This document shows, in pieces, positions 15,652 through 30,726 of a DNA stretch of 57,633 nucleotides. The DNA lies in assembly GCF_015207035.1 (NCBI RefSeq), contig NZ_JADEXQ010000031.1:1-57633 (forward strand). Direction: 5' to 3'. The translations under genes and the position numbers were made by a program. A model generated the notes under the pieces. The model was not told the DNA's origin, made no database searches, and saw only the letters and a program-made list of their open reading frames with translations. Source of the stretch: Romeriopsis navalis LEGE 11480 (GTDB lineage Bacteria > Cyanobacteriota > Cyanobacteriia > Leptolyngbyales > Leptolyngbyaceae). The stretch's first letter is position 1. Each line of letters begins with the position of its first letter.

Positions 15652-16668
15652 TCAATCTCTCACCAATACCTTATTGCACAAATACTCAAACAGCGCCTTA
15701 ACCAAAGCCTCCTGTGCCACTTCATCTTGAGCCGACACTCGAATCTGATCAAATAAGCCAAAGGATGTACAGTCGCGCACCCGAATGTCTTGCCGCCGCA
15801 ATTCTTCTGTGACCTGGGTGGCGTTACCGACGCTGATCAGGCCAAAGTTTGCCTGACTCCAAGTTTGCTCAAGGTCAATTCGCTGAATCTGATTTTTGAG
15901 TTCGTCCCGCCAGCGCCACAGTGTTGGGTGGCATTGTTTGACCCAGGTTTGGGCGGCGGGTGAGAGGGCCGATCGTAAAAATGCTTCGCCATGTACCGAC
16001 AACACCCACGATGGTGCAACGTTGCGAAATTCGACGAGGCTTTCATTCGCGATTAAATATCCGGCGCGCACTCCGGTCATGCCATGCGCTTTATTGGGTG
16101 CGTACATCCGCCAAAAGATTTCAGGGATGTCGATTTTGGTTTGGGTGAGTGATAGATAGGCTAAATCAGCGACGACGATCGTCTTCGATCGGGCTGCGAC
16201 CTTCGCCACCTGATCGAGAAACTCCGGCGCATAAATCTCTCCGGTGGGATTGTTTGGAATGCAGAGGAAAGCTAATTGAGCCGAGGATAAGCGTTCTAGA
16301 AATGCTTCAGGACTCTGTGCTTCATACAGTGGCAACCCCGTTAACCGGGCCGCTCGGGCATATTCCCCAAAGGTTGGAGCCATTGTCAAAATATTGCCGG
16401 TCGATCGTTCCCAGCGTGTGAGTCGCACAATCAATTCACTCGCCCCGGCTCCCACTGCGACTTGCTTGGGAGACACCTGATGAAAGGCGGAAATCTCCTG
16501 GTGCAGCTTTGTATAGAAGGGGTCGGGATAGTGCGTCGGATCGACAGCTTTGAGGGCTTTGAGGACGGTCGGGTTTGGCCCTAGCGCATTAGCATTGGAG
16601 GAGAAATCATACTTTGGCGGTGTCCCGGAATCCGTGCTGCCATGAATCGGTTGGAGCTGATCTACCAT
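15652..16668 (-). CDS. cobC: Threonine-phosphate decarboxylase-like aminotransferase (CobC/CobD type)
   Basis: This 338-residue class-I PLP enzyme probably makes (R)-1-aminopropan-2-yl phosphate, the linker between corrin ring and nucleotide loop. Family marks are YDFSSNANALGPN, YPDPFYTKL, the substrate/PLP loop IPNNPTGEI, and the PLP lysine in APNKAHGMTGVRAGY (Lys193). The start at 16668 overlaps the cobD stop by 7 bases, consistent with translational coupling. It is the last gene of the run that starts with cobG. Histidinol-phosphate aminotransferase is the main alternative, but the short length and the location next to cobD argue for the cobalamin role. Confidence 0.87.
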   Translation of the reverse strand: MVDQLQPIHGSTDSGTPPKYDFSSNANALGPNPTVLKALKAVDPTHYPDPFYTKLHQEISAFHQVSPKQVAVGAGASELIVRLTRWERSTGNILTMAPTFGEYARAARLTGLPLYEAQSPEAFLERLSSAQLAFLCIPNNPTGEIYAPEFLDQVAKVAARSKTIVVADLAYLSLTQTKIDIPEIFWRMYAPNKAHGMTGVRAGYLIANESLVEFRNVAPSWVLSVHGEAFLRSALSPAAQTWVKQCHPTLWRWRDELKNQIQRIDLEQTWSQANFGLISVGNATQVTEELRRQDIRVRDCTSFGLFDQIRVSAQDEVAQEALVKALFEYLCNKVLVRD

Positions 16669-17714
16669 ATTCCCACCAATTCAAATCGCCACACGCCAAG
16701 GAATGCAAATAGCAACGCAAGAATCCATCCGGCATGGGTAATCCAATCAATCCCTGCCGTAGTAGTTTCGGTATCCACATCATTTCCTGTTGCATTCAAA
16801 ATATAAACACCCGGTTTGCCGAGATGTATCCCCATTCGCAAGGCAAATGCGGCCATTGACCAACCCGAATTAGGCGACGGTGTTTTACCCGATTCGTGGC
16901 GTAAAACACCGTAGGGGCGAGCATCCCGCGCCCACGAAAAATCACGCCACAATCGACCACCCCCATCCCCGATCGACATCCGCCGCAATAACGGTCGATC
17001 GATGGTGATGGTGGATTGGTGATCGGGCATCATGGTTCGTTGCAATGTTGTTTGAGGATGCGGCAGACGCGCCCCGAAGGGATAATAAAACAACCATAAT
17101 CCGGTAATACGGGCGGGGATGAAATTCATCATGTCATCCATGCGGGCAGCGACCTTTCCCCATTGTTCATATTTCTCGTTGCGATAACCCCACATAGAAT
17201 CAGCAGTATTGATAAATCGATATAAATATGCACCGGGCAATCCCAAAATCAGAAACCAAAATAACGGCGCAATCACCGAATCAGAAAGGTTCTCAGAAAT
17301 ACTTTCCAGGGCACTTTCCCGCACTTCGATCGCTGATAAATTCGTCGTATCGCGGCTGACAATATAGGCCAACCGTTTGCGCCCTTGGTCTAAATCCTGC
17401 TGTAAAGCCGCTTCGATTTCCTTTACCTCACGCACCAACATTCGGAAAGCAAAAGCGGGTTTGAGTAATATTGCCGTGAGTGGTATTTGGCCCCAGATTG
17501 GTAACTGCCACAGCCCCCACGTCATACCACAAGCGAAACCGAAAACGATGACTGCACCGATACCCCAAGTGACACCACCGAGTAGTCGTGGCAACTGATC
17601 GCCCCGTAACTTCTCCGCAAATTTCAAATAATTACCAAACCAAACCACCGGATGACACCACAACGGCGGCTCACCCACAAACCAATCTAAAAGTAGCGCC
17701 AGCAGAATCGTCAT
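16662..17714 (-). CDS. cobD: Adenosylcobinamide-phosphate synthase (CbiB/CobD)
   Basis: This 350-residue polytopic membrane protein joins the aminopropanol arm to adenosylcobyric acid. Family marks are LLDWFVGEPPLWCHPVVWFG at the N-terminus, the MWGYRNEKYEQWGKVAARMDD block, and PSPNSGWSMAAFALRMGI. ATG 17714 fits the family start; GTG 17756 would make it abut cobN. Just before PSPNSGW the protein has an odd segment (WARDARPYGVLRHESGK) encoded by a palindromic repeat (16877-16936), which looks like a translated insertion. It lies 42 bases after cobN and overlaps cobC by 7 bases. Confidence 0.9.
   Translation of the reverse strand: MTILLALLLDWFVGEPPLWCHPVVWFGNYLKFAEKLRGDQLPRLLGGVTWGIGAVIVFGFACGMTWGLWQLPIWGQIPLTAILLKPAFAFRMLVREVKEIEAALQQDLDQGRKRLAYIVSRDTTNLSAIEVRESALESISENLSDSVIAPLFWFLILGLPGAYLYRFINTADSMWGYRNEKYEQWGKVAARMDDMMNFIPARITGLWLFYYPFGARLPHPQTTLQRTMMPDHQSTITIDRPLLRRMSIGDGGGRLWRDFSWARDARPYGVLRHESGKTPSPNSGWSMAAFALRMGIHLGKPGVYILNATGNDVDTETTTAGIDWITHAGWILALLFAFLGVWRFELVGIW
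16877..16936. repeat. Palindromic repeat inside cobD, translated in frame
   Basis: ACGGTGTTTTAC (16877-16888) and GTAAAACACCGT (16901-16912) are perfect 12-bp arms. They are joined to GTAGGGGCGAGCATCCCGCG (from 16911), which resembles the end of the 195-bp element in cobG (GTAGGGGCGCGTATCCCGCG). The DNA is read through as coding sequence. Confidence 0.75.
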
Positions 17715-17756
17715 AAATTCAGATAAACTGTCGGTCGGGGCAACGCGCAACCCCAC

Positions 17757-20700
17757 TTACAAAGAAATCGATCGTACCGGAATCTTACTTTCGATTTCAC
17801 CCTCAGCATCCAAGGCAATCATCCGTAGACGCTCGAGGGTTTCCTGGCTGACATTTTCCCACAGACCGCGTTGGTGTGCCTCAAGCAATCGCTCGGACAT
17901 ATCCCGTGCCGCCCAAGCATTACTCTGCTGAATAAACGCAATATTCTCCGCGTCAAATAGGTATGCTTCCGCCACACCCTGATACATATGGTCTTCGACA
18001 CAATTCGTCGTCGCATCATAGCCAAACAAAAAGTCCACCGTCGCCGACATTTCAAAGGCTCCTTTATAGCCGTGGCGCTTTACCCCGGCGATCCATTTGG
18101 GATTGACGACGCGCGATCGATAAACCTTGGCAATTTCTTCTTTGAGCGATCGTACCTTGGGATTTTCGGTGACGGCATTATCGCCGAAGTAAGTGGTGGG
18201 TTGGGCCTGGCTGAGCAATCGGACGGCGGCAGTCATGCCCCCTTGGAATTGGTAATAGTCGTCGGAATCAAGCAAGTCATGTTCACGATTATCCTGGTTT
18301 TGCAAAACCACCTGCATTTGTGTCAGCCGTTGCGCAAAGGCTTCGGGGGCCGACTGTCCATTGCCTTTGCCGGTGTAAGCATAGCCACTCCAATTCAAAT
18401 AGGCATTCGCTAAATCACCGTCGTCCGTCCAATTCTGCGACTCGATTAAACCTTGGAGGCCCGCACCATAGGCACCGGGCTTGGAACCGAACACGCGGTA
18501 GGTCGATCGTTCCATTGCTTGCTCTGGGGATAAACCTTCTGCCTGCCATTGGGCGGATTCCTGGATGACACTGCCTGACAAGGGATTCTCTGCTGGTGTT
18601 TCATCGAGGGCGGCAACCAGTTTTACTGCTTGATCAAATAAGTCAATCAAATTCGGAAATGCATCCCGAAAGAACCCCGAAATCCGTAGCGTCACATCCA
18701 CCCGTGGTCGGCCTAAAACCGCTAACGGCAATACCTCAAAATCAACCACCCGACGCGAGGCACCATCCCACACAGGCTGCACCCCCATCAATGCAAACGC
18801 CTGCGCCAAGTCATCCCCGCCGGTGCGCATCATCGCTGTGCCCCAGACCGATAAGCCCAAGGTATTCGGGTATTCGCCATTTTCTTGGGTGTAGCGCTCG
18901 ACTAAGACTTCCGCCGCTTTGCGGCCCACGTCCCAGGCACTTTCGGTCGGGACAGCGCGAATATCGACGGAGTAGAAGTTACGACCTGTGGGAAGGACTT
19001 CCGATCTCCCCCTTGTCGGTGCGCCAGATGGAGCACTGGGAATGTAGCCACCGTTGAGTCCGTGGAGCAGGGCAGTGGTTTCTTGAGTGGTTTTTTGGAG
19101 GTTGGGCAAGAGGTGGGTTTGGAGCCAGCGAAGTTCGGTTTGGGTTTGGTGGCCGATTTTTAGGGTGTTGTTGGCTGGTTGCGTGAGTTGTGATCCCCCT
19201 AAATCCCCCTTCAAAAGAGGGACTTTGTTCAAATCTCCCCCTTTTGTTGGCGAAGCCTCTCCGGAGGAGATAGGGGGGCTAGGGGGGATCTGGTCTTCGC
19301 TACCAACCGATCGCCCCCCAATGACCGCATCAACCATTCCCCCCACAAACACCTCAATTGCCTCAACTGCCTGCCCCACATTCCGCCATGTTCCATCCAA
19401 AGCCATTGCCGGATCATCCATCAGCGGGTCAAAATCTAATCCCGAATCCTCAGCAATTGCCCGCGTCAAACCCACCCGTCCAGCTTGAGGATGCCGCGCG
19501 ATCGCAATCAGTAAGTCCCGCAATTGTGTCCCATCCGGACATTGCCCCAGGATATGCAAGCCATCCCGAATTTGCGCTTCCTTTAGTTCACAGAGAGAAC
19601 GATCGAGATAAGTCAAAACCTCTTCTTCGAAGCTTTCCCACCCCTGCTTCAACGACTCCGCCGATAGCGTAATCCCTAAATCCTGATCAAGATTACTTGC
19701 GGCTAAAACTTCGACGATTTTCTCCCGTAGGGCTTTCATCCGTGACGGATCGAGGGTCATTGCTTCGTAATATTCGTCCACTAAGTTCTCTAACGTTTGC
19801 AGGTCGTCGTAGAGTTCGGCCCGGGTCATCGGGGGCGTCAGATGGTCAATGATCACCGCTTGGGCACGGCGTTTTGCCTGGGAGCCTTCGCCCGGATCAT
19901 TGACGATAAACGGATAGAAGTGCGGCATTGTCCCGAAGGCGATCTCGGGATAGCAAGTTTGGGATAGCGCAACGCTTTTGCCGGGAAGCCATTCGAGGTT
20001 GCCGTGTTTGCCGACGTGGACGATCGCATCCGCGCCAAAGCGCGATCGCACCCATTGATAAAACGCCAGATATTCGTGGGTGGGTTCGAGATCCGGTGCA
20101 TGGTAGTTCAAAGTCGGATCTTTGTCATAGCCGCGACTGGGCTGGATACCGAGGAAAATATTACCGAGTTGGATACCGGCGATCGCAAACTCCTCCGTTT
20201 TGAATTTCCCCCAACGTTCCTGCATTGCCTGCTTTACGTCCTCTGGCAATGCACCGAAGAAAGTTAAATAATCCTGCCAAGATAACGTCTGTAAAACCGG
20301 GCGGACCGAGTTAAGTTCAGTGTCGTTTGTAATGCTCTGGGTCAGCCAAGCAATTAGCTCATCGCCGCTTTCGGGAATATCGGAAATCGTGTAGCCCTGT
20401 TGCTGCATGGCTTTTAATAGCGCGACGCAACTCGCCGGTGTATCTAACCCCACACCATTCGCCAATCGACCATCACGGTTGGGATAGTTTGCGAGGATTA
20501 GCGCGACTTTACGATCGGCAACCGCAGTTTCCGCCATCCGCACCCAGCGTTGGGTCAGATCGGCGACAAAGGTGATGCGATCTGATATAGGTTCATAACC
20601 CAGGATTTCCGTTTGCAAGATCGGATGCTTGCCTTGAGCGGCTTTAAACGAAACAGCCCGACTGATAATTCGTCCATCCACCTCGGGCAATGCCACGTTC

Positions 20701-21752
20701 ATAGCGGTATCGGTGGGGGATAATCCGCGCTGTTGCGCTTCCCATTGTTCTGCTCCGCCACCGCTGAGGATGACCTGCAACACGGGTACATCGAGTTGTT
20801 GCCACAGCTCAGTGGTGTCATCGGCAGCAGGTGTTGCTGGGTAGAGGGGCTTGGGCGAAATTAGCGAGAAGCTGGTGGTATTGAGTAGTACACGGATGGG
20901 GTTGTCGTCTTGGGGTTGGAAGTAATCGAGGAGTTCTGCCTGTACATCGGGATCGCGCAGGGAGGAGATGAAGATGGGGATGGGGGTGAGATGGCGATCG
21001 TGGAGGGCTTGGCAGAGGGCATCGATCGGTTTTGTGTTGCCGGAGAGATAATGGGCGCGGTAGAAGATGATGCCGACTTTGGGGTTGTTCGTAGATTGCG
21101 AAGTTTGTGATCCCCCTAAATCCCCCTTCAAAAGGGGGATTTTGATCGAATTCCCCCCTTTTGAAGGGGGGCTAGGGGGGATCTGATCTACTGCACCATT
21201 CGACCACCCATAAACCGCGCATTTTTCAACGACCTGTGGCGATCTCACCTGACAGTTCTGTCCACAACACCGATTCGCCACAAAATACAAAAGCTGCTGA
21301 AGATTCTCAATGCCGCCTTCAATAAAATATCGCCAGACCTGATTTACATCAGTCAATGGCAATGTCGATCGGCTCGATAAGGCTGGGTCTGGTTTGTCAT
21401 CACCGGGTAGCAGAATCAACTGTGCGCCCGTGCGTTCCGAGATTTCCTGAACGACTTCCAAACCATAGGGCCAATAGCCGACGCCACCCAAAACCCGCAC
21501 GACGATCGCCTGGGCTTTTTCGAGCACTTCTTCGGCATAGGTATCGATCGTTAACTGCTGCTGCAACGCCGCGAGATTTACCGCACGAATTTCTGGAAAA
21601 CCCGCAGGTAGATGTTCCCAAGCTCGGGCCAACACCTGAATATCGGTATCTGCCGCTGTGAGAATGACGATCGGCGCGGGATCTTGTTCGATATAAACCA
21701 CGCCCTCTTCCTGTGGATTCCAGCCTCCCGGCATTGCTGCAATTCTATGCAT
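17757..21752 (-). CDS. cobN: CobN-like cobaltochelatase large subunit
   Basis: This 1,331-residue protein belongs to the CobN/ChlH family of large chelatase subunits that hold the tetrapyrrole while a metal is inserted, here probably cobalt into hydrogenobyrinic a,c-diamide. Typical blocks include PVLQVILSGGGAEQWE, GLDTPASCVALL, VHVGKHGNLEWLPGKS, NDPGEGSQAKRRAQAVIIDH and the C-terminal WAARDMSERLLEA. ChlH for magnesium is the alternative, but the operon strongly favours CobN. No CobS/CobT AAA partners are in the window. Two in-frame repeat-derived inserts occur near residues 190-215 and 821-854 (DQIPPSPP...PLLKGDLGGSQ). Start ATG 21752 is 2 bases after cobO. Confidence 0.92.
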   Translation of the reverse strand: MHRIAAMPGGWNPQEEGVVYIEQDPAPIVILTAADTDIQVLARAWEHLPAGFPEIRAVNLAALQQQLTIDTYAEEVLEKAQAIVVRVLGGVGYWPYGLEVVQEISERTGAQLILLPGDDKPDPALSSRSTLPLTDVNQVWRYFIEGGIENLQQLLYFVANRCCGQNCQVRSPQVVEKCAVYGWSNGAVDQIPPSPPSKGGNSIKIPLLKGDLGGSQTSQSTNNPKVGIIFYRAHYLSGNTKPIDALCQALHDRHLTPIPIFISSLRDPDVQAELLDYFQPQDDNPIRVLLNTTSFSLISPKPLYPATPAADDTTELWQQLDVPVLQVILSGGGAEQWEAQQRGLSPTDTAMNVALPEVDGRIISRAVSFKAAQGKHPILQTEILGYEPISDRITFVADLTQRWVRMAETAVADRKVALILANYPNRDGRLANGVGLDTPASCVALLKAMQQQGYTISDIPESGDELIAWLTQSITNDTELNSVRPVLQTLSWQDYLTFFGALPEDVKQAMQERWGKFKTEEFAIAGIQLGNIFLGIQPSRGYDKDPTLNYHAPDLEPTHEYLAFYQWVRSRFGADAIVHVGKHGNLEWLPGKSVALSQTCYPEIAFGTMPHFYPFIVNDPGEGSQAKRRAQAVIIDHLTPPMTRAELYDDLQTLENLVDEYYEAMTLDPSRMKALREKIVEVLAASNLDQDLGITLSAESLKQGWESFEEEVLTYLDRSLCELKEAQIRDGLHILGQCPDGTQLRDLLIAIARHPQAGRVGLTRAIAEDSGLDFDPLMDDPAMALDGTWRNVGQAVEAIEVFVGGMVDAVIGGRSVGSEDQIPPSPPISSGEASPTKGGDLNKVPLLKGDLGGSQLTQPANNTLKIGHQTQTELRWLQTHLLPNLQKTTQETTALLHGLNGGYIPSAPSGAPTRGRSEVLPTGRNFYSVDIRAVPTESAWDVGRKAAEVLVERYTQENGEYPNTLGLSVWGTAMMRTGGDDLAQAFALMGVQPVWDGASRRVVDFEVLPLAVLGRPRVDVTLRISGFFRDAFPNLIDLFDQAVKLVAALDETPAENPLSGSVIQESAQWQAEGLSPEQAMERSTYRVFGSKPGAYGAGLQGLIESQNWTDDGDLANAYLNWSGYAYTGKGNGQSAPEAFAQRLTQMQVVLQNQDNREHDLLDSDDYYQFQGGMTAAVRLLSQAQPTTYFGDNAVTENPKVRSLKEEIAKVYRSRVVNPKWIAGVKRHGYKGAFEMSATVDFLFGYDATTNCVEDHMYQGVAEAYLFDAENIAFIQQSNAWAARDMSERLLEAHQRGLWENVSQETLERLRMIALDAEGEIESKIPVRSISL
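19192..19290. repeat. 99-bp palindromic repeat inside cobN (site 2), with a nested insert
   Basis: This is the same element as at 21109-21183 and 23285-23359: GATCCCCCTAAATCCCCC at one end and GGCTAGGGGGGATC at the other. It is longer by 24 bases, because the right arm is interrupted by GTTGGCGAAGCCTCTCCGG and adjoining bases, itself resembling a separate small cyanobacterial palindrome. Length 99 keeps the cobN frame. Confidence 0.85.
21109..21183. repeat. 75-bp palindromic repeat inside cobN (site 1)
   Basis: GATCCCCCTAAATCCCCC at one end pairs with GGGGGGCTAGGGGGGATC at the other; the middle contains CTTCAAAAGGGGGA and CCCCCTTTTGAAGG arms. The minus strand reads it as DQIPPSPPSKGG, a short linker, then PLLKGDLGGSQ. 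Flanking TTGCGAAGTTTGT is shared with the copy in cobJ. Confidence 0.88.
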
Positions 21753-21754
21753 CG

Positions 21755-22441
21755 TTAAAACTCAATCCCGGCCTGCGCCTTCACACCTTGTTCCCGGAAA
21801 GGATGCTTCACTAGCGTCATTTCCGTCACCAAATCTGCCACTTCGATCAACTCCGCTGGAGCACCCCGACCGGTCAAAATCACATGGTCTAGCTCTGGCT
21901 TTTCGGCCAACCCTTTGATGACGGTATCGACATCGAGATAACCCATCTTCATCGCAATGTTTACTTCATCGAGCAGCACCAGTTTAAATTCAGGATTGCG
22001 AATAAATTCCATGCCCTTTTCCCAAGCAGCATTGGCTTTTTCAATATCGCGCTCGCGGTCTTGGGTATTCCAGGTAAAGCCTTCACCCATCGCATGAAAT
22101 TCTAACTGTGGTGGTTGACCATCTTTGCTCTCCGACCATGGGGCAAATGCCGCTTTCTCTGCGGGTTCCCAAGCGCCTTTAATAAATTGCACGATCGCCA
22201 CTCGATGACCATGACCGAGTGATCGTAAGACCACGCCCAGCGATGCCGTTGTTTTACCTTTACCGTTGCCAGTATTGACAATAATTAAACCCTTTTCGGC
22301 GATTTTATCCGCCATGCGCTTTTCTTGCACTTCTTGGCGACGAGCCATTTTTTTGCGATGTTGCTCATCGCTTAACCCCTTATCAGCGGGAGTCTGTTCG
22401 AGTTCAGCCGGGACATCTTGATTCGACATAATATTCACCAT
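21755..22441 (-). CDS. cobO: Cob(I)yrinic acid a,c-diamide adenosyltransferase (CobO/BtuR)
   Basis: This 228-residue CobA/CobO-type enzyme transfers the adenosyl group of ATP to the cobalt of corrinoids. A charged, Lys/Arg-rich N-terminal extension (about 45 residues) precedes the P-loop NTGNGKGKTTASLG (residues 56-69). Then come VAIVQFIKG, FHAMGEGFTWNTQDRERD, LVLLDEVNIAMKMGYLD and LTGRGAP, all characteristic. Start is ATG 22441 or ATG 22429. It follows cbiG/cobJ by about 59 bases, with a hairpin in the gap, and is 2 bases before cobN. Confidence 0.95.
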   Translation of the reverse strand: MVNIMSNQDVPAELEQTPADKGLSDEQHRKKMARRQEVQEKRMADKIAEKGLIIVNTGNGKGKTTASLGVVLRSLGHGHRVAIVQFIKGAWEPAEKAAFAPWSESKDGQPPQLEFHAMGEGFTWNTQDRERDIEKANAAWEKGMEFIRNPEFKLVLLDEVNIAMKMGYLDVDTVIKGLAEKPELDHVILTGRGAPAELIEVADLVTEMTLVKHPFREQGVKAQAGIEF

Positions 22442-22462
22442 GCATGTTCAAAGTCATCGTCG

Positions 22463-22489
22463 GTTGGGTGCAACAACATAAAACCCAAC
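22463..22489. repeat. Hairpin repeat between cobJ and cobO
   Basis: GTTGGGT (22463-22469) and ACCCAAC (22483-22489) form a small stem around an AT-rich loop. It resembles the GTTGGGTTT/AAACCCAAC palindromes of cyanobacteria. It is within the operon and could affect mRNA processing or simply be a mobile palindrome. Confidence 0.5.
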
Positions 22490-22500
22490 GCATCCACCAA

Positions 22501-24030
22501 TCACCGATCGTACCGGCGCGGCGTATAAACCCATTGCCTCCCCCCTTGCTCAAACACACGGGTTTTGCTCGAACCAACGAGAATCATCGTGCGCATATTG
22601 GCATCCTCGCTTTGCAGATCGCCTAAATGCTTCACCCGAATATTTTGGCCCGGACGCCCGACATTTTCCGCCAGGACGATCGGCGTTGTCCCATCCCGAT
22701 ATTCCAACAGTTTTTCCTTCGCTTTTTCCAACTGCCACCGCCGCTGACTCGAAATCGGATTGTAAAACGCCATCACAAAATCCGCCTGCGCTGCCTGGGC
22801 AATTCGCTGTTCAATCACCTCCCACGGTTTGAGAATGTCGGAGAGCGAAATCGCGCAGAAGTCGTGCCCGATCGGTGCCCCAATCAAAGCCGCCGCCCCC
22901 TGCATCGCTGAAATCCCTGGACAGACCTGAAGATTTAAATCCTGCCAAGTTGTTTTCGCATCCGTCTCCATGGCTTCAAACACCGCCGCCGCCATCGCAT
23001 AAATCCCCGGATCACCGGATGAAACCATCACTACCGATTTTCCTGTAGCTGCAAAATCGAGGGCGGCACGGGCACGATCGAGTTCCTCGCGGTTATCTGA
23101 CTCGTGACGATTCTGGGTTGTACGAAGTGGCTCGACCAAGTTGAGATAGGTTTTGTAGCCGAACCAGTCAGTAGATGTTTCGAGTACACGTCGGACTTCG
23201 GGCGTCATCCAATCGATGCAGCCGGGACCAGTGCCGATGATAGCTAGGCGTCCTGGAAGTTGGTAGGTTTGTTGCGAAGTTTGTGATCCCCCTAAATCCC
23301 CCTTCAAAAGGGGGACTTTGATCTTGTCCCCCCCTTTTGAAGGGGGGCTAGGGGGGATCTGGTCCACGCCACCCACCGACAATTCAAAGTCCCCCAGAAT
23401 TGGGGGATTTAGGGGGCCGACCACGCGATACACCAAACAATCAGGCCCAGGCTCCCCACCTTCTCCAACGACGATCGACAAATCCGCCCCATCATCCACC
23501 GGCAACTTCGCCGCATCCAACCAATCCGTTTGCCCGATAATCCGCACCGACTGCCCCGCTAAAAGTGCTGCCAGAAAATCTTTCCCATCATCGGGATTCA
23601 CCAGCTCATAACCCGCTGGTGGCGACAACAACGAAGTCCGAAACCGAATCTCTCCGGCTGTCGTAATCGCCGGTACAGTCTGCAAAATCTGCCCCACCTG
23701 ATGCGCCAAGGCATTCGCCCCGCTGACACCACCAAGGAGTGGTACGACTGCGCTGCCATCTTCCGCAACCGCCAACAACGGTGGCTCCTGCCATTTATTC
23801 CCTAACAGCGGCGCGATCGTCCGAATCAAAATTCCCGAGGCACAAACCCCAATCACTGCTGTACCCTGCCGAAACAATGTCTGCACCGTATCGCCAAACT
23901 CATCGAAAGTTTGATCGACATCCGATACACGTTTAGCGAAACCATATAATTTTGCATCGGGTAACGCCGCAACCACTTGCTGCCCGATCGCCACACTTTG
24001 CTGATTTAGTACTACTACCGCAACTTCCAT
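22501..24030 (-). CDS. cobJ: CbiG N-terminal region fused to precorrin-3B C17-methyltransferase (CobJ/CbiH)
   Basis: This 509-residue fusion has two parts. Residues 1-200 resemble the N-terminal and middle parts of CbiG (TAVIGVCASGILIRTIAPLL, then VVPLLGGVSGANALA); CbiG opens the ring lactone during corrin contraction in the cobalt-early pathway, and the CobE-like C-terminal part is absent. Residues from about 260 are the CobJ/CbiH SAM methyltransferase: LAIIGTGPGCIDWMTPEV, SSGDPGIYAMA, CPGISAMQGAAALIGAP, FYNPIS. ATG 24030 is chosen because it overlaps the cobI stop as TAATG. The junction between the halves (residues 205-248) is made of palindromic repeat DNA read in frame. Confidence 0.92.
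   Translation of the reverse strand: MEVAVVVLNQQSVAIGQQVVAALPDAKLYGFAKRVSDVDQTFDEFGDTVQTLFRQGTAVIGVCASGILIRTIAPLLGNKWQEPPLLAVAEDGSAVVPLLGGVSGANALAHQVGQILQTVPAITTAGEIRFRTSLLSPPAGYELVNPDDGKDFLAALLAGQSVRIIGQTDWLDAAKLPVDDGADLSIVVGEGGEPGPDCLVYRVVGPLNPPILGDFELSVGGVDQIPPSPPSKGGDKIKVPLLKGDLGGSQTSQQTYQLPGRLAIIGTGPGCIDWMTPEVRRVLETSTDWFGYKTYLNLVEPLRTTQNRHESDNREELDRARAALDFAATGKSVVMVSSGDPGIYAMAAAVFEAMETDAKTTWQDLNLQVCPGISAMQGAAALIGAPIGHDFCAISLSDILKPWEVIEQRIAQAAQADFVMAFYNPISSQRRWQLEKAKEKLLEYRDGTTPIVLAENVGRPGQNIRVKHLGDLQSEDANMRTMILVGSSKTRVFEQGGRQWVYTPRRYDR
23285..23359. repeat. 75-bp palindromic repeat inside cobJ, at the CbiG-CobJ junction
   Basis: This copy is nearly identical to cobN site 1 and has the same length: GATCCCCCTAAATCCCCC to GGCTAGGGGGGATC with inner TTCAAAAGGGGG and CCCCCCTTTTGAAGG arms. 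It is translated as DQIPPSPPSKGG, then PLLKGDLGGSQ. The shared upstream flank GTTGCGAAGTTTGT suggests the mobile unit is longer than 75 bp. Confidence 0.88.
23386..23417. repeat. Second, shorter palindromic repeat in the cobJ linker
   Basis: CCCCCAGAATTGGGGG (23391-23406) is a near-perfect palindrome followed by ATTTAGGGGGC and preceded by AAAGT. The minus strand reads it as GPLNPPILGDFELS. It shares the CCCCCTAAATCCCCC and GGGGGACTTTG modules with the 75-bp element 27 bases away. Confidence 0.75.
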
Positions 24031-24746
24031 TAGCCCTTTGCCCAATCCCATTCACTCGGAATCACAATGATCGAGAAATACGGCACTTCGGCTGGATCGA
24101 CCTCGAGAATTGGGACGATGCGTTGTCGATCGGTGGTCGCCCGTTCGACAAATAAGGCCCGATCGATGAGTCCCACATCCTTCAGCACATTCCGCACTTT
24201 CTCGAAATTCCGCCCTAGTTTCATCACCACCGCCGCATCTGTATGCTGCAACTGTTTCGTCAGTTTCTCCGCTGGCAGAATTCCCGAAAGTACCGTAAAC
24301 ACATCATTCCGATAAGTCAGCGGTGTACGTAACATTGATGCACTGGCCATCACTGAAGACACACCCGGAATAATCTCTGTGGGAAACTGCGGTGATAAGC
24401 GATTAAACAAATACATGAACGTGCCGAAGAAAAACGGATCGCCTTCACAGAGCACCGCAATATCCTGTCCGGCGGCTAAATGCTCTGCCAAAACTCCGGC
24501 CCAGTAGTCATATTTCGGCTGGGAGGACTCCGCAAGTTTAAACGGGAAATCCATGCCAATTTCCGTCTGCTCTGGCTTTAAGTAATCCGCTACAATGCTG
24601 CGTGAAATGCACCGACCATCGGGCGACTTCGGATAAGCGACGATCGGCACCGACTGCAAAATTCGATACCCCTTCAGCGTTAGCAATTCTGGATCGCCAG
24701 GTCCTAGACCGATGCCGTACAATGTGCCCATTTTAGTTTCAGTCAT
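24030..24746 (-). CDS. cobI: Precorrin-2 C20-methyltransferase (CobI/CbiL)
   Basis: This 238-residue SAM-dependent enzyme methylates C-20 of precorrin-2. The tetrapyrrole methylase fold is shown by LYGIGLGPGDPELLTLKG at the N-terminus, AYPKSPDGRC, VLCEGDPFFFGTFMYL and TEIIPGVSSVMASASML. The start ATG 24746 overlaps the cobH stop (TAATG), and its own stop overlaps the cobJ start the same way, so cobH-cobI-cobJ are translationally coupled. Length is normal. Confidence 0.96.
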   Translation of the reverse strand: MTETKMGTLYGIGLGPGDPELLTLKGYRILQSVPIVAYPKSPDGRCISRSIVADYLKPEQTEIGMDFPFKLAESSQPKYDYWAGVLAEHLAAGQDIAVLCEGDPFFFGTFMYLFNRLSPQFPTEIIPGVSSVMASASMLRTPLTYRNDVFTVLSGILPAEKLTKQLQHTDAAVVMKLGRNFEKVRNVLKDVGLIDRALFVERATTDRQRIVPILEVDPAEVPYFSIIVIPSEWDWAKG

Positions 24747-25372
24747 TATTCCTTCTCCTGTGCCAGGGCATTCACCGCTGCTGCCGCGATCGCGCTGCCA
24801 CCCCGTCGCCCATGCAACGTAATGAATGGCACTCCGCGACTATTGGCCGCGAGTTCTGCCTTTGACTCCGCTGCGCCGACAAATCCCACTGGGAAACCCA
24901 GAATCAAAGCCGGTTTGGGGGCACCTTCATCAATCAATTCGAGTAAGCGAAATAACGCCGTGGGCGCATTGCCGATCGCCACTACAGCGCCTTCCACTTG
25001 CGGTAGCCAGAAGTCGATTGCAGCAGCCGATCGGGTATTGCCAATCTGTTTGGCTAAGGCCGGTGTTTCGGGATGCTTCAGGGTACAAATCACTTCGTTG
25101 TTTGCTGGCAAACGACTACGGGTCACTCCATGCGCAACCATCTGCGCATCACAGATAATCGGTGCGCCATTGGCTAATACGGCCCGTCCGATCGCCCCCG
25201 CGCCTTTAGAAGCCGCCACATCCGACACAATGTCCGTCATCCCTGAAGAATGAATCAGCCGCACTACGAGCTTTTCTAAGTCTTCCGGCACCTGGGATAA
25301 ATCAGCCTCGGCCCGAATCATGGCAAAGGATTTATCGTATATTTCACTGCCTACCCGTATGTAATCCAGCAT
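24746..25372 (-). CDS. cobH: Precorrin-8X methylmutase (CobH/CbiC)
   Basis: This 208-residue enzyme moves the methyl group from C-11 to C-12 to form hydrogenobyrinic acid. Family features are the VRLIHSSGMTD block with the catalytic His, GAPIICDAQMVAHGVTR, AIGNAPTALFRLLELI, and the C-terminal ILGFPVGFVGAAESK. ATG 25372 lies 4 bases after the cobG stop, and its stop overlaps cobI by one base. Confidence 0.96.
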   Translation of the reverse strand: MLDYIRVGSEIYDKSFAMIRAEADLSQVPEDLEKLVVRLIHSSGMTDIVSDVAASKGAGAIGRAVLANGAPIICDAQMVAHGVTRSRLPANNEVICTLKHPETPALAKQIGNTRSAAAIDFWLPQVEGAVVAIGNAPTALFRLLELIDEGAPKPALILGFPVGFVGAAESKAELAANSRGVPFITLHGRRGGSAIAAAAVNALAQEKE

Positions 25373-25376
25373 TGCT

Positions 25377-27014
25377 TTAGCTCACACCCAAACCGAAAAT
25401 TTCTTGTAACTGCTTTATCTCGTAGCGTTGCGTAAATTGACTAAACGATTCATCTGGTTCGCGCGATCGTTGATAACGGCGCACAATCCTGGCGATGACT
25501 TCGGGCAATTGGGTGGGGACGATCGATGTGACTAATAATCGCCCAAAGGTTTGATTGCTATCCCGGAGATAAATGTCATACCCATGCTCAGTCCCCATCA
25601 GCGCAATATCACTGCCGGAGGGTTGCGCACAGCCTTTTCCACAACCGCTCACATGAATATTAATCGGCTGATCCAGTTTGACGGAATCGGCTAAATGCTG
25701 GGTGATTTTGGCCGCATCAATTTGCGTTTCGGTGAAGGATGCCCCACAACCAGGCAGTCCACGGCAAGCAACTATGCCACCGGCTGGATGAGTCTGATCG
25801 TAAGCAAATCCTAGTGATTCAAGCGTTTGTTGAAATTCTGTTAACCGAGTTTTGGGGATATTCGGAATAATCAAATTTTGCCAAGGGGTCAGTCGTAATT
25901 CGCCGTTGCCATAGGTTTGAGCCAATTGTGATAGTTGGTGTAATTGATTGGATAACAGACGACCCAACGGCACAATCATCCCGACATAAGCCAAACCACA
26001 TTGTGATTGGTCATGCACCCCAATATGATCAAAATGTTGTTCCCACCGTAGGGGCGCGTATCCCGCGCCCTTCAATTTTATTGCCCCCACCGATCGCCTT
26101 TCAGATGGTTCATCCACGTTGGTTTCATGGGTGGTCATGGGCGCGGGAAATGCCATTTTTTTTACATTCCCCGATCGCGTTTCGGATGGTTCATTCACGT
26201 TGGTTTCATGGGTGGTCGTGGGCGCGGGAAACGCGCCCCTACCATTCAACTGTTTGCAAACCCGATCGCATCCTAAATAATCCACCACATCCCCCCAACG
26301 GGGTTTTCGACTACGCCGATGTTCGTTCACCGACACCGGAATCTGCGGTGCAAACTCTAAATACATCTGGCTAATTGCTGCCACTAACTCAATGACGTTG
26401 CCCGGTGAACACATCAACCACGTATCGCGTTGTCCAAACAACAACCGCATCTGGCTGGCTGATGTGGCAACAAACCAAACATCATTGCGGCGATCGCCAA
26501 TACTCACACCTTCCCCACCATCCAACCCAACGCTGAACTTCGCACTCAAAGGCGCTAACTCTGGATGACTGGAGAAATACTGATCAATTGCCTGCACCAA
26601 ACCGCTTGTATCCATCACTGCCGCTACATCAATCCCCGCTGTCGGACTCGCCATCACATTGCGCAGATGGTCGACTTCCGGCAACCGTGCCGCTAATCCC
26701 AAATCCTGTAACTGCGCGACAATCGCTGGGGCAATCTCCGGTTCCGGCAACCGTAACTGCACATTTGCCCGATTCGTCAGCCACACCTGCCCCTGCCCAA
26801 ACTGCGCCGCCACATCAGCGATCAACGTCGCCTGCGCACAATTCAAAACACCACCGGGCAAGCGAATACGAGTCAGAAACCCGTCCTGCGCAGCGGTTTG
26901 ATAAAACAATCCTGGACAAGCATCACCATCAGCCCTTGAAGGGGTGGAACTGAAAGTGGCAGAACTAACGCCAGCGCGTGACGACGCAGCAATACTCGAA
27001 ATACTAACGACCAA
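25377..27014 (-). CDS. cobG: Precorrin-3B synthase (CobG), sirohaem/4Fe-4S oxidoreductase-like
   Basis: This 545-residue protein (from the proposed TTG start) resembles nitrite/sulfite reductase half-domains: FLTRIRLPGGVLNCAQ and VWLTNRANVQLRLP at the N-terminus, and the cluster-binding ACRGLPGCGASF and HVSGCGKGCAQPSG cysteines near the C-terminus. CobG uses oxygen to make precorrin-3B ahead of ring contraction. I choose TTG 27014 because AGGAG sits 7 bases before it and it lies downstream of the riboswitch; GTG 27083 would fall right behind the aptamer. A 195-bp palindromic, internally duplicated element adds about 65 residues in the middle. A ferredoxin-dependent reductase is the alternative, but the operon supports CobG. 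Confidence 0.85.
   Translation of the reverse strand: MVVSISSIAASSRAGVSSATFSSTPSRADGDACPGLFYQTAAQDGFLTRIRLPGGVLNCAQATLIADVAAQFGQGQVWLTNRANVQLRLPEPEIAPAIVAQLQDLGLAARLPEVDHLRNVMASPTAGIDVAAVMDTSGLVQAIDQYFSSHPELAPLSAKFSVGLDGGEGVSIGDRRNDVWFVATSASQMRLLFGQRDTWLMCSPGNVIELVAAISQMYLEFAPQIPVSVNEHRRSRKPRWGDVVDYLGCDRVCKQLNGRGAFPAPTTTHETNVNEPSETRSGNVKKMAFPAPMTTHETNVDEPSERRSVGAIKLKGAGYAPLRWEQHFDHIGVHDQSQCGLAYVGMIVPLGRLLSNQLHQLSQLAQTYGNGELRLTPWQNLIIPNIPKTRLTEFQQTLESLGFAYDQTHPAGGIVACRGLPGCGASFTETQIDAAKITQHLADSVKLDQPINIHVSGCGKGCAQPSGSDIALMGTEHGYDIYLRDSNQTFGRLLVTSIVPTQLPEVIARIVRRYQRSREPDESFSQFTQRYEIKQLQEIFGLGVS
26048..26242. repeat. 195-bp inverted-repeat element inside cobG with an 81-bp internal duplication
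   Basis: GTAGGGGCGCGTATCCCGCG (from 26048) is mirrored by CGCGGGAAACGCGCCCCTAC (ending 26242). Between them, a block of about 63 bases (26092-26154) is repeated at 26173-26235, a period of 81 bases, or 27 codons. The translation contains FPAPTTTHETNVNEPSETRS followed by FPAPMTTHETNVDEPSERRS. No stop codon is introduced. Confidence 0.85.
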
Positions 27015-27021
27015 ATCGGCA

Positions 27022-27026
27022 CTCCT
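27022..27026 (-). promoter_or_regulatory. Ribosome binding site deciding the cobG start
   Basis: AGGAG on the minus strand is 7 bases upstream of TTG 27014-27012. CATCTCCGG at 27059-27051 contains CTCC complementary to GGAG, with a CCCG/CGGG mini-stem between them. The site can therefore be masked in a hairpin directly after the riboswitch aptamer. Confidence 0.6.
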
Positions 27027-27089
27027 GACCCGTGCGACGCGGGAAATAAACCGGAGATGTTGGCACTTGTTTGACGCAAGCACAACAGC

Positions 27090-27215
27090 ACTGAAACTGG
27101 CATTCTGACTTATGAGCTAACCCCCATTGCAGACGGCGAACCCCATTACAGTTGCGGCACAGCCCCGGAATCACACCGGACTTCCCCAATATTCAGCTTT
27201 AGCAGCGTATCATGG
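27090..27215 (-). ncRNA. Cobalamin (adenosylcobalamin-type) riboswitch upstream of cobG
   Basis: The minus strand shows the conserved core in order: GGGGAAGTCCGGTG, ATTCCGGGGCTGTGCCGC, AACTGTAATGG, then after a variable arm the B12-box-like AGTCAGAATGCCAGT (27110-27096). These are the hallmarks of the cobalamin riboswitch: binding of the cofactor blocks expression of the downstream genes. It would control cobG and, by cotranscription, the cobH-cobC run. The exact ends are approximate. Downstream, a hairpin can mask the cobG Shine-Dalgarno sequence, so a translational switch is more likely than termination, as no T tract is visible. Confidence 0.93.
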
Positions 27216-27281
27216 AGCGCAGTCCAGCAACGCAATGGACTAATTTTTCTTCAGATTTTGAATTCCGCAAGGGCAATCGCT

Positions 27282-28499
27282 ATGGACAAATGGCTCTCTG
27301 TCGTTGGCATTGGGGATGATGGTCTCGCGGGGCTGAGTCCCGTTGCCATGAGTCATCTCCAGCAAGCGCGCCTGATCGTTGGGGGCAAACGTCATTTAGC
27401 AATGTTGGCGGACGATAAGTTAGAAGGCGACGATCGACCCCAAATTGCTTGGTCTGGCCCCATTGCTGACACGATCACCCAAATTCTTACCCATCGGCCT
27501 ACGCCCACCTGCATTCTCGCCAGCGGCGACCCCATGTGTTATGGCATCGGCACCACCTTAATGCGTCATTTGCCATTGACTGAAATGACCATCTTTCCGG
27601 CTCCCTCCGCCTTCAGCTTGGCCTGTTCTCGTTTGGGGTGGCCCCTCCCAGAAGTTGAGACCATCAGCCTTTGCGGCCGCGATCCTGCTTTACTAAATGC
27701 CGTGATGTATCCCGGTGCCAAGATTTTGGTGTTGAGTAGCGATCGCACCACCCCCGCAACAGTTGCCAACTGCCTTATCGAGAAGGGCTACGGCAACACG
27801 CAAATGACCGTCCTTGAACATCTTGGTGGCCCGCAAGAACGGCAAATCCAAGGTCTGGCCCGCGATTGGACGCATACGGATATGCAAAATCTCAATACGA
27901 TCGCCCTCGAATGTCCGCCCGATGTTCTTGGATTCACCCGCTTTCCCGGTCTGCCTGATGATGCCTACCAGCATGACGGCCAACTGACTAAACGCGAGGT
28001 TCGGGCGATTACGTTATCAACCTTGGCCCCTAAACCGGGTGAATTACTCTGGGATGTGGGTGGGGGTTCTGGCTCGATCAGCATTGAGTGGATGCGCCAC
28101 CACCATCGATGTCAGGCAATTACAATCGAATCCCACCCTGAACGCTTACGGACAATCGCCCATAATGCCGCAAATCTTGGTGTCCCCAACCTTCAAATCA
28201 TCGACGGACGTGCGCCTGCTGCTTTACAAAACCGGCCCACCCCAGACGCAATTTTTATCGGCGGTGGATTAACTGTAGAAGGAGTATTTGAAACCTGCTG
28301 GGCCACCTTAAAACCCGGTGGTCGATTAGTCGCCAACGGTTTCACAGTGCAAACAGAACAACGGCTTTTTGAACTTCAACAAATCTACGGCGGTGAACTT
28401 AATCGCATCGCAATCCAACGGGCCCAACCCATCGGTAAATTCTTGGGGTGGAAATCGCTGGCACCCGTGACCCAGTGGTGTGTGACCAAACTACAATAA
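27282..28499 (+). CDS. cobL: Precorrin-6Y C5,15-methyltransferase, decarboxylating (CobL; CbiE-CbiT fusion)
   Basis: This 405-residue fusion methylates C-5 and C-15 and decarboxylates the C-12 acetate arm. The CbiE half (1-200) has SVVGIGDDGLAGLSP, ILASGDPMCYGIG and FPAPSAFSLACSRLGWPL. The CbiT half (from about 215) has KREVRAITLSTLAPKPGELL, the SAM motif WDVGGGSGSISIEW, AITIESHPERL and AIFIGGGLT. ATG 27282 gives the family-like MDKWLSVVGIG; a TTG at 27258 is less likely. It is divergent from cobG, and the roughly 70 bases beyond the riboswitch must hold both promoters. Confidence 0.95.
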   Translation: MDKWLSVVGIGDDGLAGLSPVAMSHLQQARLIVGGKRHLAMLADDKLEGDDRPQIAWSGPIADTITQILTHRPTPTCILASGDPMCYGIGTTLMRHLPLTEMTIFPAPSAFSLACSRLGWPLPEVETISLCGRDPALLNAVMYPGAKILVLSSDRTTPATVANCLIEKGYGNTQMTVLEHLGGPQERQIQGLARDWTHTDMQNLNTIALECPPDVLGFTRFPGLPDDAYQHDGQLTKREVRAITLSTLAPKPGELLWDVGGGSGSISIEWMRHHHRCQAITIESHPERLRTIAHNAANLGVPNLQIIDGRAPAALQNRPTPDAIFIGGGLTVEGVFETCWATLKPGGRLVANGFTVQTEQRLFELQQIYGGELNRIAIQRAQPIGKFLGWKSLAPVTQWCVTKLQ

Positions 28500-28563: not shown

Positions 28564-29721
28564 CTATTGGGCAAATCCGAGCATTGCGAAACAAGGGATT
28601 ATGGCAATAAAAAATGGCAAGACTTTCAGCCAGGTTCGAGGCTGTCCCAAAACCAATAGTAATAGGCAGAAAATATCCATAAAAACCCGGCCATAACCCA
28701 CATAGTAAGTGAAAATTAGCTCATTACTAAAGGCAAACAGCAAGGCTAGAAACCCAGCATAGATCCACAGCACGCGGTTATCAAAACGACGATTTGAGCG
28801 GGTCTGACCAATCCGACTGGACTTTTTGCGCAATAAATAAAACGTCAGGCAAAACACGCCAATCAACAACAGAAACAAATACGCCTCAAACAGATTTTTC
28901 ATTTGCCACCCACCCGAAATCAGGGCAGCAAATTTTCCCCCAATGTCAACCAAAGGTTGGGTGAAATTCAAACCAGCGCTGCTACTCCCCTGCTGCGACA
29001 GTCTTACAAGAACATAGACGTTCCAGCTCACGACCGGAATCAAACTCATGAACAAGATTTTGACCTGACGCCAGTTCCGATCGCCGATCGCACAAATCAC
29101 CAAGGACAGCCAGCCCAGCAGCAATGTTTCTCGGGTTAGACAACCAGCGGCAATGGCAATACCGGTAGCCCATGGACGTCGATACCGGAAACAACAAATT
29201 GCCAAAACCAACAGGGTTGTGCTAACTAAATCAGCAGTTGAGAAGATGAATGTCAGCCAGACGCCAGGGATACAAAGTACAAGTAAAGCATGCCATCGGG
29301 GTTCGCGAGTTTGGCGAAGTCCCCAACCCATCAAGCCCACCAAACTACTGATGCAAAGCGCATTGATCGCCACAAGCGCGGCGGGAATTAAGCGAGGATT
29401 ACCAAGGCCCAACAGATAGCCCAACATTGGATAGAAAATCCGCCGGTAACGATACAGCGGATTATCTAAGGCCAGAATCGTTGCCGGATTTTGCAACAGC
29501 GGGTCAAATGCAAGACTCAGAAACAGATGACCGTCATAGCCCAATTCCCCCTGATAAATCAGCGCTTTAGTCGCATCCAGGTAAGGCGAGAGGGGAATGA
29601 TTGAACCAATTCGAAAAAAGCCTGTGATGTTGCCCTGAAATTTTGTCCAGTAGCAAAATAAGTATACGCACAACGTAATTAAACTGGCGAAAATCACGTT
29701 TCGACGAACTGTCAATTTCAT
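28564..29721 (-). CDS. Polytopic membrane protein, probable GT-C-like glycosyltransferase of unknown substrate
   Basis: This 385-residue protein has about nine to ten hydrophobic helices. After the first helix comes a loop with acidic residues and YDGHLFLSLAFDPLL, a pattern (YDG before a helix) seen in membrane proteins of the GT-C or glycopolymer-formation type. Charged loops such as RYRRIFYPMLGYLLG are conserved-looking. I do not recognise an exact family and see no link to cobalamin synthesis, although the gene sits between cobL and cobK. It is convergent with cobL, with 64 bases between stops. Confidence 0.6.
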   Translation of the reverse strand: MKLTVRRNVIFASLITLCVYLFCYWTKFQGNITGFFRIGSIIPLSPYLDATKALIYQGELGYDGHLFLSLAFDPLLQNPATILALDNPLYRYRRIFYPMLGYLLGLGNPRLIPAALVAINALCISSLVGLMGWGLRQTREPRWHALLVLCIPGVWLTFIFSTADLVSTTLLVLAICCFRYRRPWATGIAIAAGCLTRETLLLGWLSLVICAIGDRNWRQVKILFMSLIPVVSWNVYVLVRLSQQGSSSAGLNFTQPLVDIGGKFAALISGGWQMKNLFEAYLFLLLIGVFCLTFYLLRKKSSRIGQTRSNRRFDNRVLWIYAGFLALLFAFSNELIFTYYVGYGRVFMDIFCLLLLVLGQPRTWLKVLPFFIAIIPCFAMLGFAQ

Positions 29722-29802: not shown

Positions 29803-30585
29803 TTACACCGAAGCATCACGCCGAGGTGCTTGACGGCTTTCAAGCTGTCGCTCCACCCAAGCCACTACAGCATCAACATCATGCACCACCTCACCCACTG
29901 GCAACGCCGGACGGGGAATCATGACGACGGGTAAACCTAATTCCCGGGCCGCAATGATTTTGGCATAGGTGGCATTGCCCCCGCTGTTTTTACTGACGAT
30001 CGCCCCCACACGATATTTCTGCATCAACGCTTTTTCATCCTCAACCGAAAATGGGCCTTGTTGTAACAGCACTTTCCCCGGCGGGATGGGCGGGTCAGGC
30101 GGCGTAATCATCCGCATCAGGAACCAAAGCTGATCCAAGTGGGCAAAGGCTTTGAGTTCCTGACGACCGATCGTCAAAAATATTCGATCCGCCAACCCAG
30201 GCAACACGGCCGCCGCTGCCGCCTGATCAGCCACATCAATCCAACAATCATCCGATCGGCGCTGCCAACCCAAACGATTGAGTAGCAGTCGGGGAATCCC
30301 CTGCTGCGTCGCTGCCACCGCCGCATTATGAGAAATTTGAGCGGCAAACGGATGTGTAGCATCAATCACTAAATCAATTTTTTCGGTCTGCAAAAACTGC
30401 GCCAGACCGGCTACGCCCCCAAACCCCCCCCGACGCACTCGGCCCACCGTCGGAATGTTCGGTTTGGGGGTGCGCCCGGCCAGGGATGCAATCAGCTCAA
30501 CCTTCGGTAACGTGGCAACGCGGTCAATCACTTTCGCCGCATCACCGGTTCCACCAAGAATAAGGATGCGTTGAGTCATGGGCAT
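29803..30585 (-). CDS. cobK: Precorrin-6A reductase (CobK/CbiJ)
   Basis: This protein of about 260 residues reduces precorrin-6A with NADPH. The Rossmann start RILILGGTGDAAKVIDR, IDLVIDATHPFAAQISHNA, FLTIGRQELKAF, SKNSGGNATYAKIIAA and ARELGLPVVMIPRP are all typical of the family. The frame starts at GTG 30591; ATG 30585 or ATG 30579 is more likely, with AGG a few bases ahead of 30585. It is a single gene, divergent from the small lipoprotein gene and same-stranded with the membrane protein downstream. Confidence 0.93.
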   Translation of the reverse strand: MPMTQRILILGGTGDAAKVIDRVATLPKVELIASLAGRTPKPNIPTVGRVRRGGFGGVAGLAQFLQTEKIDLVIDATHPFAAQISHNAAVAATQQGIPRLLLNRLGWQRRSDDCWIDVADQAAAAAVLPGLADRIFLTIGRQELKAFAHLDQLWFLMRMITPPDPPIPPGKVLLQQGPFSVEDEKALMQKYRVGAIVSKNSGGNATYAKIIAARELGLPVVMIPRPALPVGEVVHDVDAVVAWVERQLESRQAPRRDASV

Positions 30586-30726
30586 AGGCACCTAAATCTG
30601 ATTTAATCCTGAGCGTTTACGGAGATTTTGCATAAGTTTGGGCAAGCTGTAATTACGTATCGCTTAGGTTAGGCCATCTATCGCATTCTTCATCTGGCTT
30701 CCTTCATATCTAGGAGATTTTATTTC

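Follow-up and report, generated by a model that had tools for sequence, protein, structure and literature searches.

Why does a single cobalamin (B12) operon carry several palindromic repeats inside its genes, all of them read in frame? The question is raised by the window analysed here, contig C31 (57,633 nt) of the draft genome of the cyanobacterium Romeriopsis navalis LEGE 11480 (6.47 Mb, 251 contigs). Its cob operon lies on the minus strand in the order riboswitch-cobG-cobH-cobI-cbiG-cobJ-cobO-cobN-cobD-class I/II aminotransferase gene. A preliminary description of this DNA had claimed at least five in-frame palindromes of at least two families, in cobG, cobJ (two adjacent), cobN (two) and cobD. 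This was borne out: we found in-frame insertions at five sites (cobG, the cbiG-cobJ fusion, cobN twice and cobD), belonging to two main palindrome families, A and B, and every palindrome site is in frame within a host open reading frame (ORF) that is unbroken and retains its Pfam domains. Our explanation, to which we give a probability of roughly 0.6, is that mobile-looking palindromes land randomly or nearly so and that in-frame copies survive in tolerant linkers, of which CobN has several, with local copying as a possible contribution. The genes concerned and their inserts are as follows.

25377..27083, minus strand: cobG (Pfam NIR_SIR_ferr and NIR_SIR, two stretches each; aligned with the best matches of 29 relatives)
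26048..26242, minus strand: cobG insert, two inverted family B units (26048-26070 and 26220-26242) around a 61-nt unit present twice
22501..24051, minus strand: cbiG-cobJ fusion (Pfam CbiG_N and TP_methylase)
23266..23382, minus strand: full family A element at the CbiG/CobJ junction, in frame (ends approximate; palindrome around 23285-23359), encoding DQIPPSPPSKGGDKIKVPLLKGDLGGSQTSQ
23384..23420, minus strand: family A half copy adjoining the full cobJ copy (core 23402-23416; GPLNPPILGDFE)
17757..21752, minus strand: cobN, cobaltochelatase large subunit (Pfam PF02514; CobN of PDB 9uk9 by sequence)
21090..21206, minus strand: full family A element in cobN linker 1 (ends approximate; palindrome around 21109-21183), about residues 189-216
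19173..19313, minus strand: full family A element in cobN linker 2 (ends approximate; palindrome around 19195-19287), about residues 820-855
19247..19270, minus strand: 24-nt second repeat, TTGGCGAAGCCTCTCCGGAGGAGA, nested in the cobN linker-2 element
16662..17756, minus strand: cobD (Pfam PF03186, CobD_Cbib)
16877..16938, minus strand: cobD insert directly before PSPNSGW, a family B unit (16911-16933) with an adjoining 12-bp inverted repeat (16877-16912)

Family A is a double hairpin (GATCCCCCTAAATCCCCC...) laid out as GATCCCCCTAAATCCCCCTTCAAAAGGGGG, a 15-nt spacer and CCCCCTTTTGAAGGGGGGCTAGGGGGGATC; by eye, weaker inverted flanks lie outside these. Its terminal inverted repeats have 30-nt arms that are 87% complementary, as in short elements of the miniature inverted-repeat transposable element (MITE) type or of the REPIN type, i.e., paired repetitive extragenic palindromes (REPs); no target site duplication was noticed by eye in the flanks, which were not tested systematically. 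The nested 24-nt repeat has related forms within family A copies elsewhere in the genome (C18, C72, C53 and C188). We take family A to resemble the GC-rich small dispersed repeats and MITEs of cyanobacteria, with a second small repeat nested inside it. Family B is a GTAG-tagged REP, a short GC-rich stem-loop, and all three operon units read GTAGGGGCG, the GTAG end being required by the search pattern itself. In the cobG insert, the 61-nt unit occurs twice in frame (26090-26231, 57/61 identical) and starts within a REP arm. Inverted pairs of family B were found in cobG and on contigs C5, C35, C47, C81 and C109; the cobD unit and several others are single. A REPIN is defined as two hairpin units in inverse orientation, and both family A and paired family B share this arrangement.

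How unusual is the operon within its own genome? The survey consisted of pattern searches of the genome contigs together with stretches fetched around matches. Searches allowing one mismatch yielded 66 matches, 36 to family A arms and 30 to family B, every one of which was placed. Copies of both families occur throughout the genome, for the most part where no convincing ORF is present. Genome-wide, 13 in-ORF sites were credited, five of them in the 10.4-kb operon and eight, all of family A, elsewhere: in genes for a thiamine pyrophosphate (TPP) enzyme (menD-like by eye), a GH3 protein, NACHT proteins (twice), a 3HCDH/ECH fusion, a chorismate-binding protein, an FGE-sulfatase and a transport permease. 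The genome-wide survey called for in the preliminary description thus showed that in-frame copies of these two families are not equally frequent elsewhere. Before this count we dropped C84 (at an ORF start), C119 (two matches at the end of a DUF559 ORF), C19 (a one-mismatch match in a long repetitive ORF, with no palindrome), C127 (three matches ahead of an apparent signal peptide) and C5, C47 and C124 (small or weak ORFs), and C4 was retained despite its N-terminal position. As a control, the reversed family A pattern was uninformative, since it reads identically backwards; the reversed family B pattern gave 4 matches vs. 30, and in one further repeat-pattern search the reversed pattern gave more matches than the pattern itself (44 vs. 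31).

When 13 points were placed at random over a coding length of 5.1 Mb, at least five fell within one 10.4-kb stretch once in 2,000,000 trials; with 12 points, at least four did so in 37 of 2,000,000. Adding the dropped contigs as 7 sites (20 in total) raised the first figure to 3 in 2,000,000, and 19 points with at least four together gave 244. This placement test was made after the fact, since families A and B were first found in this operon and only then counted. A fairer check, weaker at arms of 10, is a family-blind count of inverted repeats, which we made in forty 20-kb stretches from the longest contigs (C1-C30 and C32-C41; 629,208 coding nt), whose coding share also gave the 5.1 Mb used above. 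With arms of at least 12, scored ORFs contain 3 inverted repeats in the operon (0.033 expected) vs. 2 in the 629,208 nt (P 6e-6); with arms of at least 10, the contrast is weaker, 3 (0.35 expected) vs. 21 (P 0.005). The short repeat patches in ORFs of the forty stretches mostly resemble paralogous domains, as judged by reading, and the four in the operon are family A copies. Outside the operon, searching the window with the A and B patterns and allowing at most two mismatches gave a single, unpartnered match, at 10022; ORFs there also contain three other inverted repeats, with arms of 10-11.

Do relatives have the same inserts? The 80 best cobN relatives, picked by protein similarity alone and all cyanobacterial, were kept, and 60 of them were aligned for linker lengths. 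Linker 2 measures 88 residues here vs. a median of 44 (range 35-88; one of the 60 is as long), and linker 1 measures 54 vs. a median of 30 (20-125). Between anchors, CobG has 92 residues vs. 36-51 in its 29 best matches, at least one of which (L252) is perhaps not CobG but a nitrite or sulfite reductase; CobD has 56 vs. 33 in 28 of 29 relatives, the remaining one (15 residues) being cut short. The CbiG/CobJ junction is 80 residues long here, and among 29 relatives it is empty in one, spans 25-60 residues in 23 and, with an extra stretch, 133-177 in five. A-like matches occur in 2 of the 87 cobJ, cobG and cobD loci of relatives (L242 and L245, both from the cobG set). In the comparison with relatives proposed earlier, most of those compared (60 for cobN, 29 for cobG, 29 for cobD) are without the inserts. 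Judged by these alignments, the inserts qualify as protein-coding palindromes, that is, in-frame insertions in conserved genes that are absent in relatives, with some relatives having inserts of their own in linker 1.

The predicted structure places the cobN inserts in probably disordered segments. CobN was modelled with AlphaFold in two pieces (26 sequences each; mean predicted local distance difference test score, pLDDT, 74.3 and 70.6), and pLDDT falls below 50 at residues 187-217 and 825-859, which are the two inserts; the sequence match to the solved CobN (PDB 9uk9) splits into 1-807 and 869-1304, around insert 2. We propose that family A (MITE- or REPIN-like) and family B (a GTAG-tagged REP) are small, mobile-looking elements that would land at random or nearly so, and that an in-gene copy would survive only if the frame is kept and the protein tolerates extra, unstructured residues at the site. 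The copies in cobG, in cobD and at the CbiG/CobJ junction would have passed this same filter, perhaps with a contribution from local copying of family A in the operon. Mobility, neutrality, turnover and local copying of the elements, and their translation into protein, are what the sequence data suggest.

The three full family A copies also fold strongly as RNA: the cobN linker-1 copy at -52.2 kcal/mol (z -6.4), the cobJ copy at -53.4 kcal/mol (z -5.5) and the cobN linker-2 copy at -51.8 kcal/mol (z -4.1). Two whole family B units fold at -14.9 and -16.1 kcal/mol (z about -2), and the third, clipped in its fold, at -5.8 kcal/mol. The strong family A folds, the riboswitch at the head of the operon and the presence of inserts in four of its genes could mean a role for the hairpins in regulating or processing the polycistronic mRNA, by attenuation, RNase cutting or stabilization, with selection keeping them in the B12 operon. 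We consider this unlikely, since copies are also present in eight further ORFs of this genome, 61 of the 80 relatives' cobN genes are without A-like DNA (by window-derived patterns), and in other species the A-like elements of cobN vary in orientation, in copy number and in site.

Is the pattern, then, a property of this operon or of cobN? A search of the 80 cobN loci with five patterns located 26 sites within cobN itself, spread over 21 of the 80 genes; flanking ORFs held 5 more, and the rest of the flanks 13. Three of these patterns were derived from cobN inserts of other species, and the recount with the two window-derived patterns gave family-A-like DNA in 19 of the 80 relatives' cobN genes, including three doubtful or partial cases (L133 with no palindrome on reading, L168 partly N, L169 degenerate). 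By density, 19 sites in 308,577 nt of cobN vs. 4 in 856 flanking open frames (904,943 nt) correspond to about a 14-fold excess, the frames being all those of at least 150 residues in six frames, some surely not genes. Sites in the sixteen cobN loci that were read are spread over at least five loops; at five Microcoleus-type loci, that of Microcoleus vaginatus and L132, L149, L153 and L165, linker 1 carries family A in the opposite orientation. In tblastn searches with the other cob genes, nothing in the 80 cobN loci matched at E 1e-20, and at 1e-10 weak cobG matches appeared among the matches listed. Judging from these loci, cobN carries A-like DNA in many cyanobacteria without other cob genes beside it. 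The B12-operon framing of the preliminary description thus holds as far as enrichment in this operon goes, but it is too narrow for cobN. The recurrence in other genomes also bears on an assembly or sequencing artefact, conceivable in a draft of 251 contigs, where repeats are hard to assemble; with the frame kept at every site and A-like inserts at the same linkers elsewhere, we rate its chances as next to nil.

In cobN linkers of other cyanobacteria (L118, L150, L148, L334) we also observed non-palindromic tandem repeats of the GAGEQGSG-, PIPNSQF- and ITQGVAPRA-type.

The paralog of cobN, chlH, is of similar length. Across 291 genomes of the class, the family A peptide was found in 74 in one orientation and 58 in the other, mostly in short frames among the matches listed. 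From 41 genomes chosen among the 74 with the peptide, 37 cobN and 40 chlH genes were obtained (the 37 genomes are all among the 40), the two being told apart by profile score, not by tree; the cobN genes of G018, G061, G289 (split) and G000 were left out of the 37. A-like DNA was present in 16 of 37 cobN genes (24 sites) vs. 0 of 40 chlH genes (Fisher P 9e-7 by gene), with gene counts unchanged when window-derived patterns were used. Nearly all of the 24 sites lie near residues 190-214 or 788-846; the G011 element is just upstream of linker 2 rather than within it, in the orientation opposite to the window's, and G147, whose whole locus was measured, has a second site elsewhere. Inverted repeats of any kind number 14 in cobN vs. 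5 in chlH. Within one genus, the two cobN linkers hold different elements in different orientations and copy numbers, which points to turnover. CobN would thus collect, swap and multiply such elements across cyanobacteria owing to its several hypervariable linkers, ChlH being free of them in every gene examined.

The same data could indicate that the cobN linkers are preferred insertion targets, through a sequence or single-strand preference beyond mere tolerance: A-like DNA, in the form of different elements, is found at the same linkers in several lineages and in none of 40 chlH genes. This, too, appears unlikely, if anything a little more so than a role in the mRNA. At least five cobN loops are used among the 16 loci read, non-palindromic tandem repeats fill these linkers as well, and no shared target or target duplication was noticed by eye, without a systematic test.

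Several observations weigh against random landing followed by survival in tolerant linkers. As regards tolerance, which the preliminary description had proposed for loops of this operon, four of the five sites do lie in variable stretches or at a domain junction, but the cobD site, beside PSPNSGW, is in a stretch of otherwise invariant length, so that tolerant loops fail to cover it. Linker 1 reaches or exceeds the length seen here in 15 of 60 relatives, in some owing to other repeats that are not palindromic, and each CobN model has three other stretches as low in pLDDT as the inserts. The contrast between cobN and chlH shrinks by genus to 5/21 vs. 0 (P 0.048), because 12 of the 16 positive cobN genes come from one genus. 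When any inverted repeat is counted in the 80 loci, the excess of cobN over flanking frames is only about 1.5-fold at arms of at least 10 (28 vs. 54) and about 2-fold at arms of at least 12 (10 vs. 14). Moreover, no A or B pattern was present in the fetched flanks of four Y1_Tnp loci, the only transposase type covered, so that no transposase is linked to either family; a distant or unassembled REP-associated tyrosine transposase (RAYT) is possible. Finally, 11 of 484 near-invariant CobN columns depart from the commonest residue here (90th percentile of 61 sequences), and weaker constraint on the whole of cobN may therefore contribute. The changed columns would also suit an operon that is losing function and accumulating insertions; with the frame kept at every insertion and cobG, cobJ, cobN and cobD all full ORFs with their Pfam domains, such decay is very improbable.

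Could the family A cluster instead stem from one or two events, a single insertion into the operon that was subsequently multiplied through local copying or gene conversion? By left arm plus flank, the cobN linker-1 and cobJ copies are mutually nearest (90%), and the right flank GATCTGRTC is common to the three full operon copies and absent from the 12 (of 15) other aligned family A copies with a visible flank. By the full element, however, the cobJ copy (0.88) and cobN linker 2 (0.84) are closest to C188, which also tells against the part that local copying may have played in our own explanation; support for the local rearrangement suggested earlier is mixed. The cobG and cobD units belong to a different family, B, the cobN genes of other species would be left unexplained, and even one site fewer (the 12-point placement above) leaves the clustering rare. 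Spread from a single insertion is thus, in our judgement, quite unlikely as the sole cause.

How do these elements relate to known ones? The preliminary description had spoken of a previously undescribed pattern, which is too strong. The accessible portions of the literature already document in-frame, read-through palindromes in Rickettsia, in Neisseria and in enterobacteria (PMC2229807, PMC10969869). GTAG and CGTC REPs inside genes, in frame, are described by Di Nocera et al. 2013 (PMC3733652), who found REPs at roughly matching positions in recB of X. campestris and X. oryzae and reported GTAG families in cyanobacteria. Like those GTAG REPs, family B has a GTAG end and a short GC-rich stem-loop, with units found inside ORFs and in inverted pairs; unlike here, that paper stresses DNA synthesis and repair genes, its main text containing no word that starts with "cob" (PMC3733652), and no Y1_Tnp gene flanked by family B was found in our genome. 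Rickettsia palindromic elements (RPEs), as presented in the accessible text, are likewise read through in frame within genes for conserved proteins, as palindromes that measure about 100-150 bp, but differ in sequence and phylum and occupy many unrelated genes (PMC2229807, PMC10969869, PMC3733652), whereas the copies described here are concentrated in one operon, and it is a single gene family in which A-like elements recur. REPINs share the two inverse hairpin units described above; in contrast to them, no linked RAYT was found at the four Y1_Tnp loci, and we infer mobility here. Our search of the accessible papers found none that links the cobaltochelatase CobN of cyanobacteria to palindromes, and no title on cobN inserts; the cobN literature that was found concerns GUN4 and, in its accessible portions, does not mention cobN inserts. 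We know of no report of a cobN hot spot for cyanobacterial small dispersed repeats or MITEs. What is new, going by the gene comparisons, is cobN as an apparently recurrent target of A-like palindromes, intragenic palindromes themselves being already known.

A bolder and unlikely extension is that CobN is a standing landing ground whose linkers are repeatedly entered, emptied and refilled, and that the hairpins or loops may be put to use in tuning cobalt chelation or B12 operon expression. If so, one enzyme would keep growing new unstructured segments. In any case, cobN may offer a repeated natural experiment in protein growth, with one enzyme in many species bearing species-specific, palindrome-encoded segments beside a paralog, ChlH, that has none in 40 genes; where selection lets mobile DNA become protein is then a directly testable question. 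A practical caution is that cyanobacterial cobN sequences can include repeat-derived segments.

Some further frames and loci deserve mention. A RAYT as mover of A or B was rejected, as two RAYT-like genes adjoin a different palindrome of their own: these Y1_Tnp genes (L110 and L111, on C42 and C10) each lie beside a palindrome, CCTGGCACCAGG / CCTGGTGCCAGG, unlike A and B, which is perhaps a further repeat family of this genome. Three long open frames with the family A peptide in other genomes were rejected as cobN, being WD40/NACHT-type, hydantoinase-like and NACHT/HEAT-type by eye, and three further peptide-bearing frames contained stops and gave no coding case. Five frames fetched for the other orientation comprised one cobN (G147), a nonribosomal peptide synthetase (NRPS)-like frame, a U32 peptidase-like frame and two short ones; the reading was confined to the matches listed, less four long frames with a stop (G148:C111, G272:C183, G000:C35, G147:C134). 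The G147 cobN frame (L289 / L369) ends at 643 residues, soon after the tandem repeat GRTEVLTTNL, and the remainder lies in another frame. NACHT-type genes with in-frame family A were seen twice in this genome and, by eye, in two other genomes (L073, L080, L283, L285), making them a possible recurrent target.

The remaining features of the operon are the following.

27090..27203, minus strand: AdoCbl-II (cobalamin) riboswitch, operon leader (Rfam RF01689, 39.2 bits, gathering threshold 36.5)
24746..25372, minus strand: cobH-like gene, without repeat (named by eye)
24030..24746, minus strand: cobI-like gene, without repeat (named by eye)
21755..22441, minus strand: cobO-like gene, without repeat (named by eye)
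15652..16668, minus strand: aminotransferase class I/II gene after cobD (Pfam), cobC-like by position, without repeat

Elsewhere in the window, an ORF of 385 residues at 28564-29721, with no Pfam match at E 0.001, is flanked by genes for a TP_methylase (27258-28499) and for CbiJ/CobK (29803-30591).

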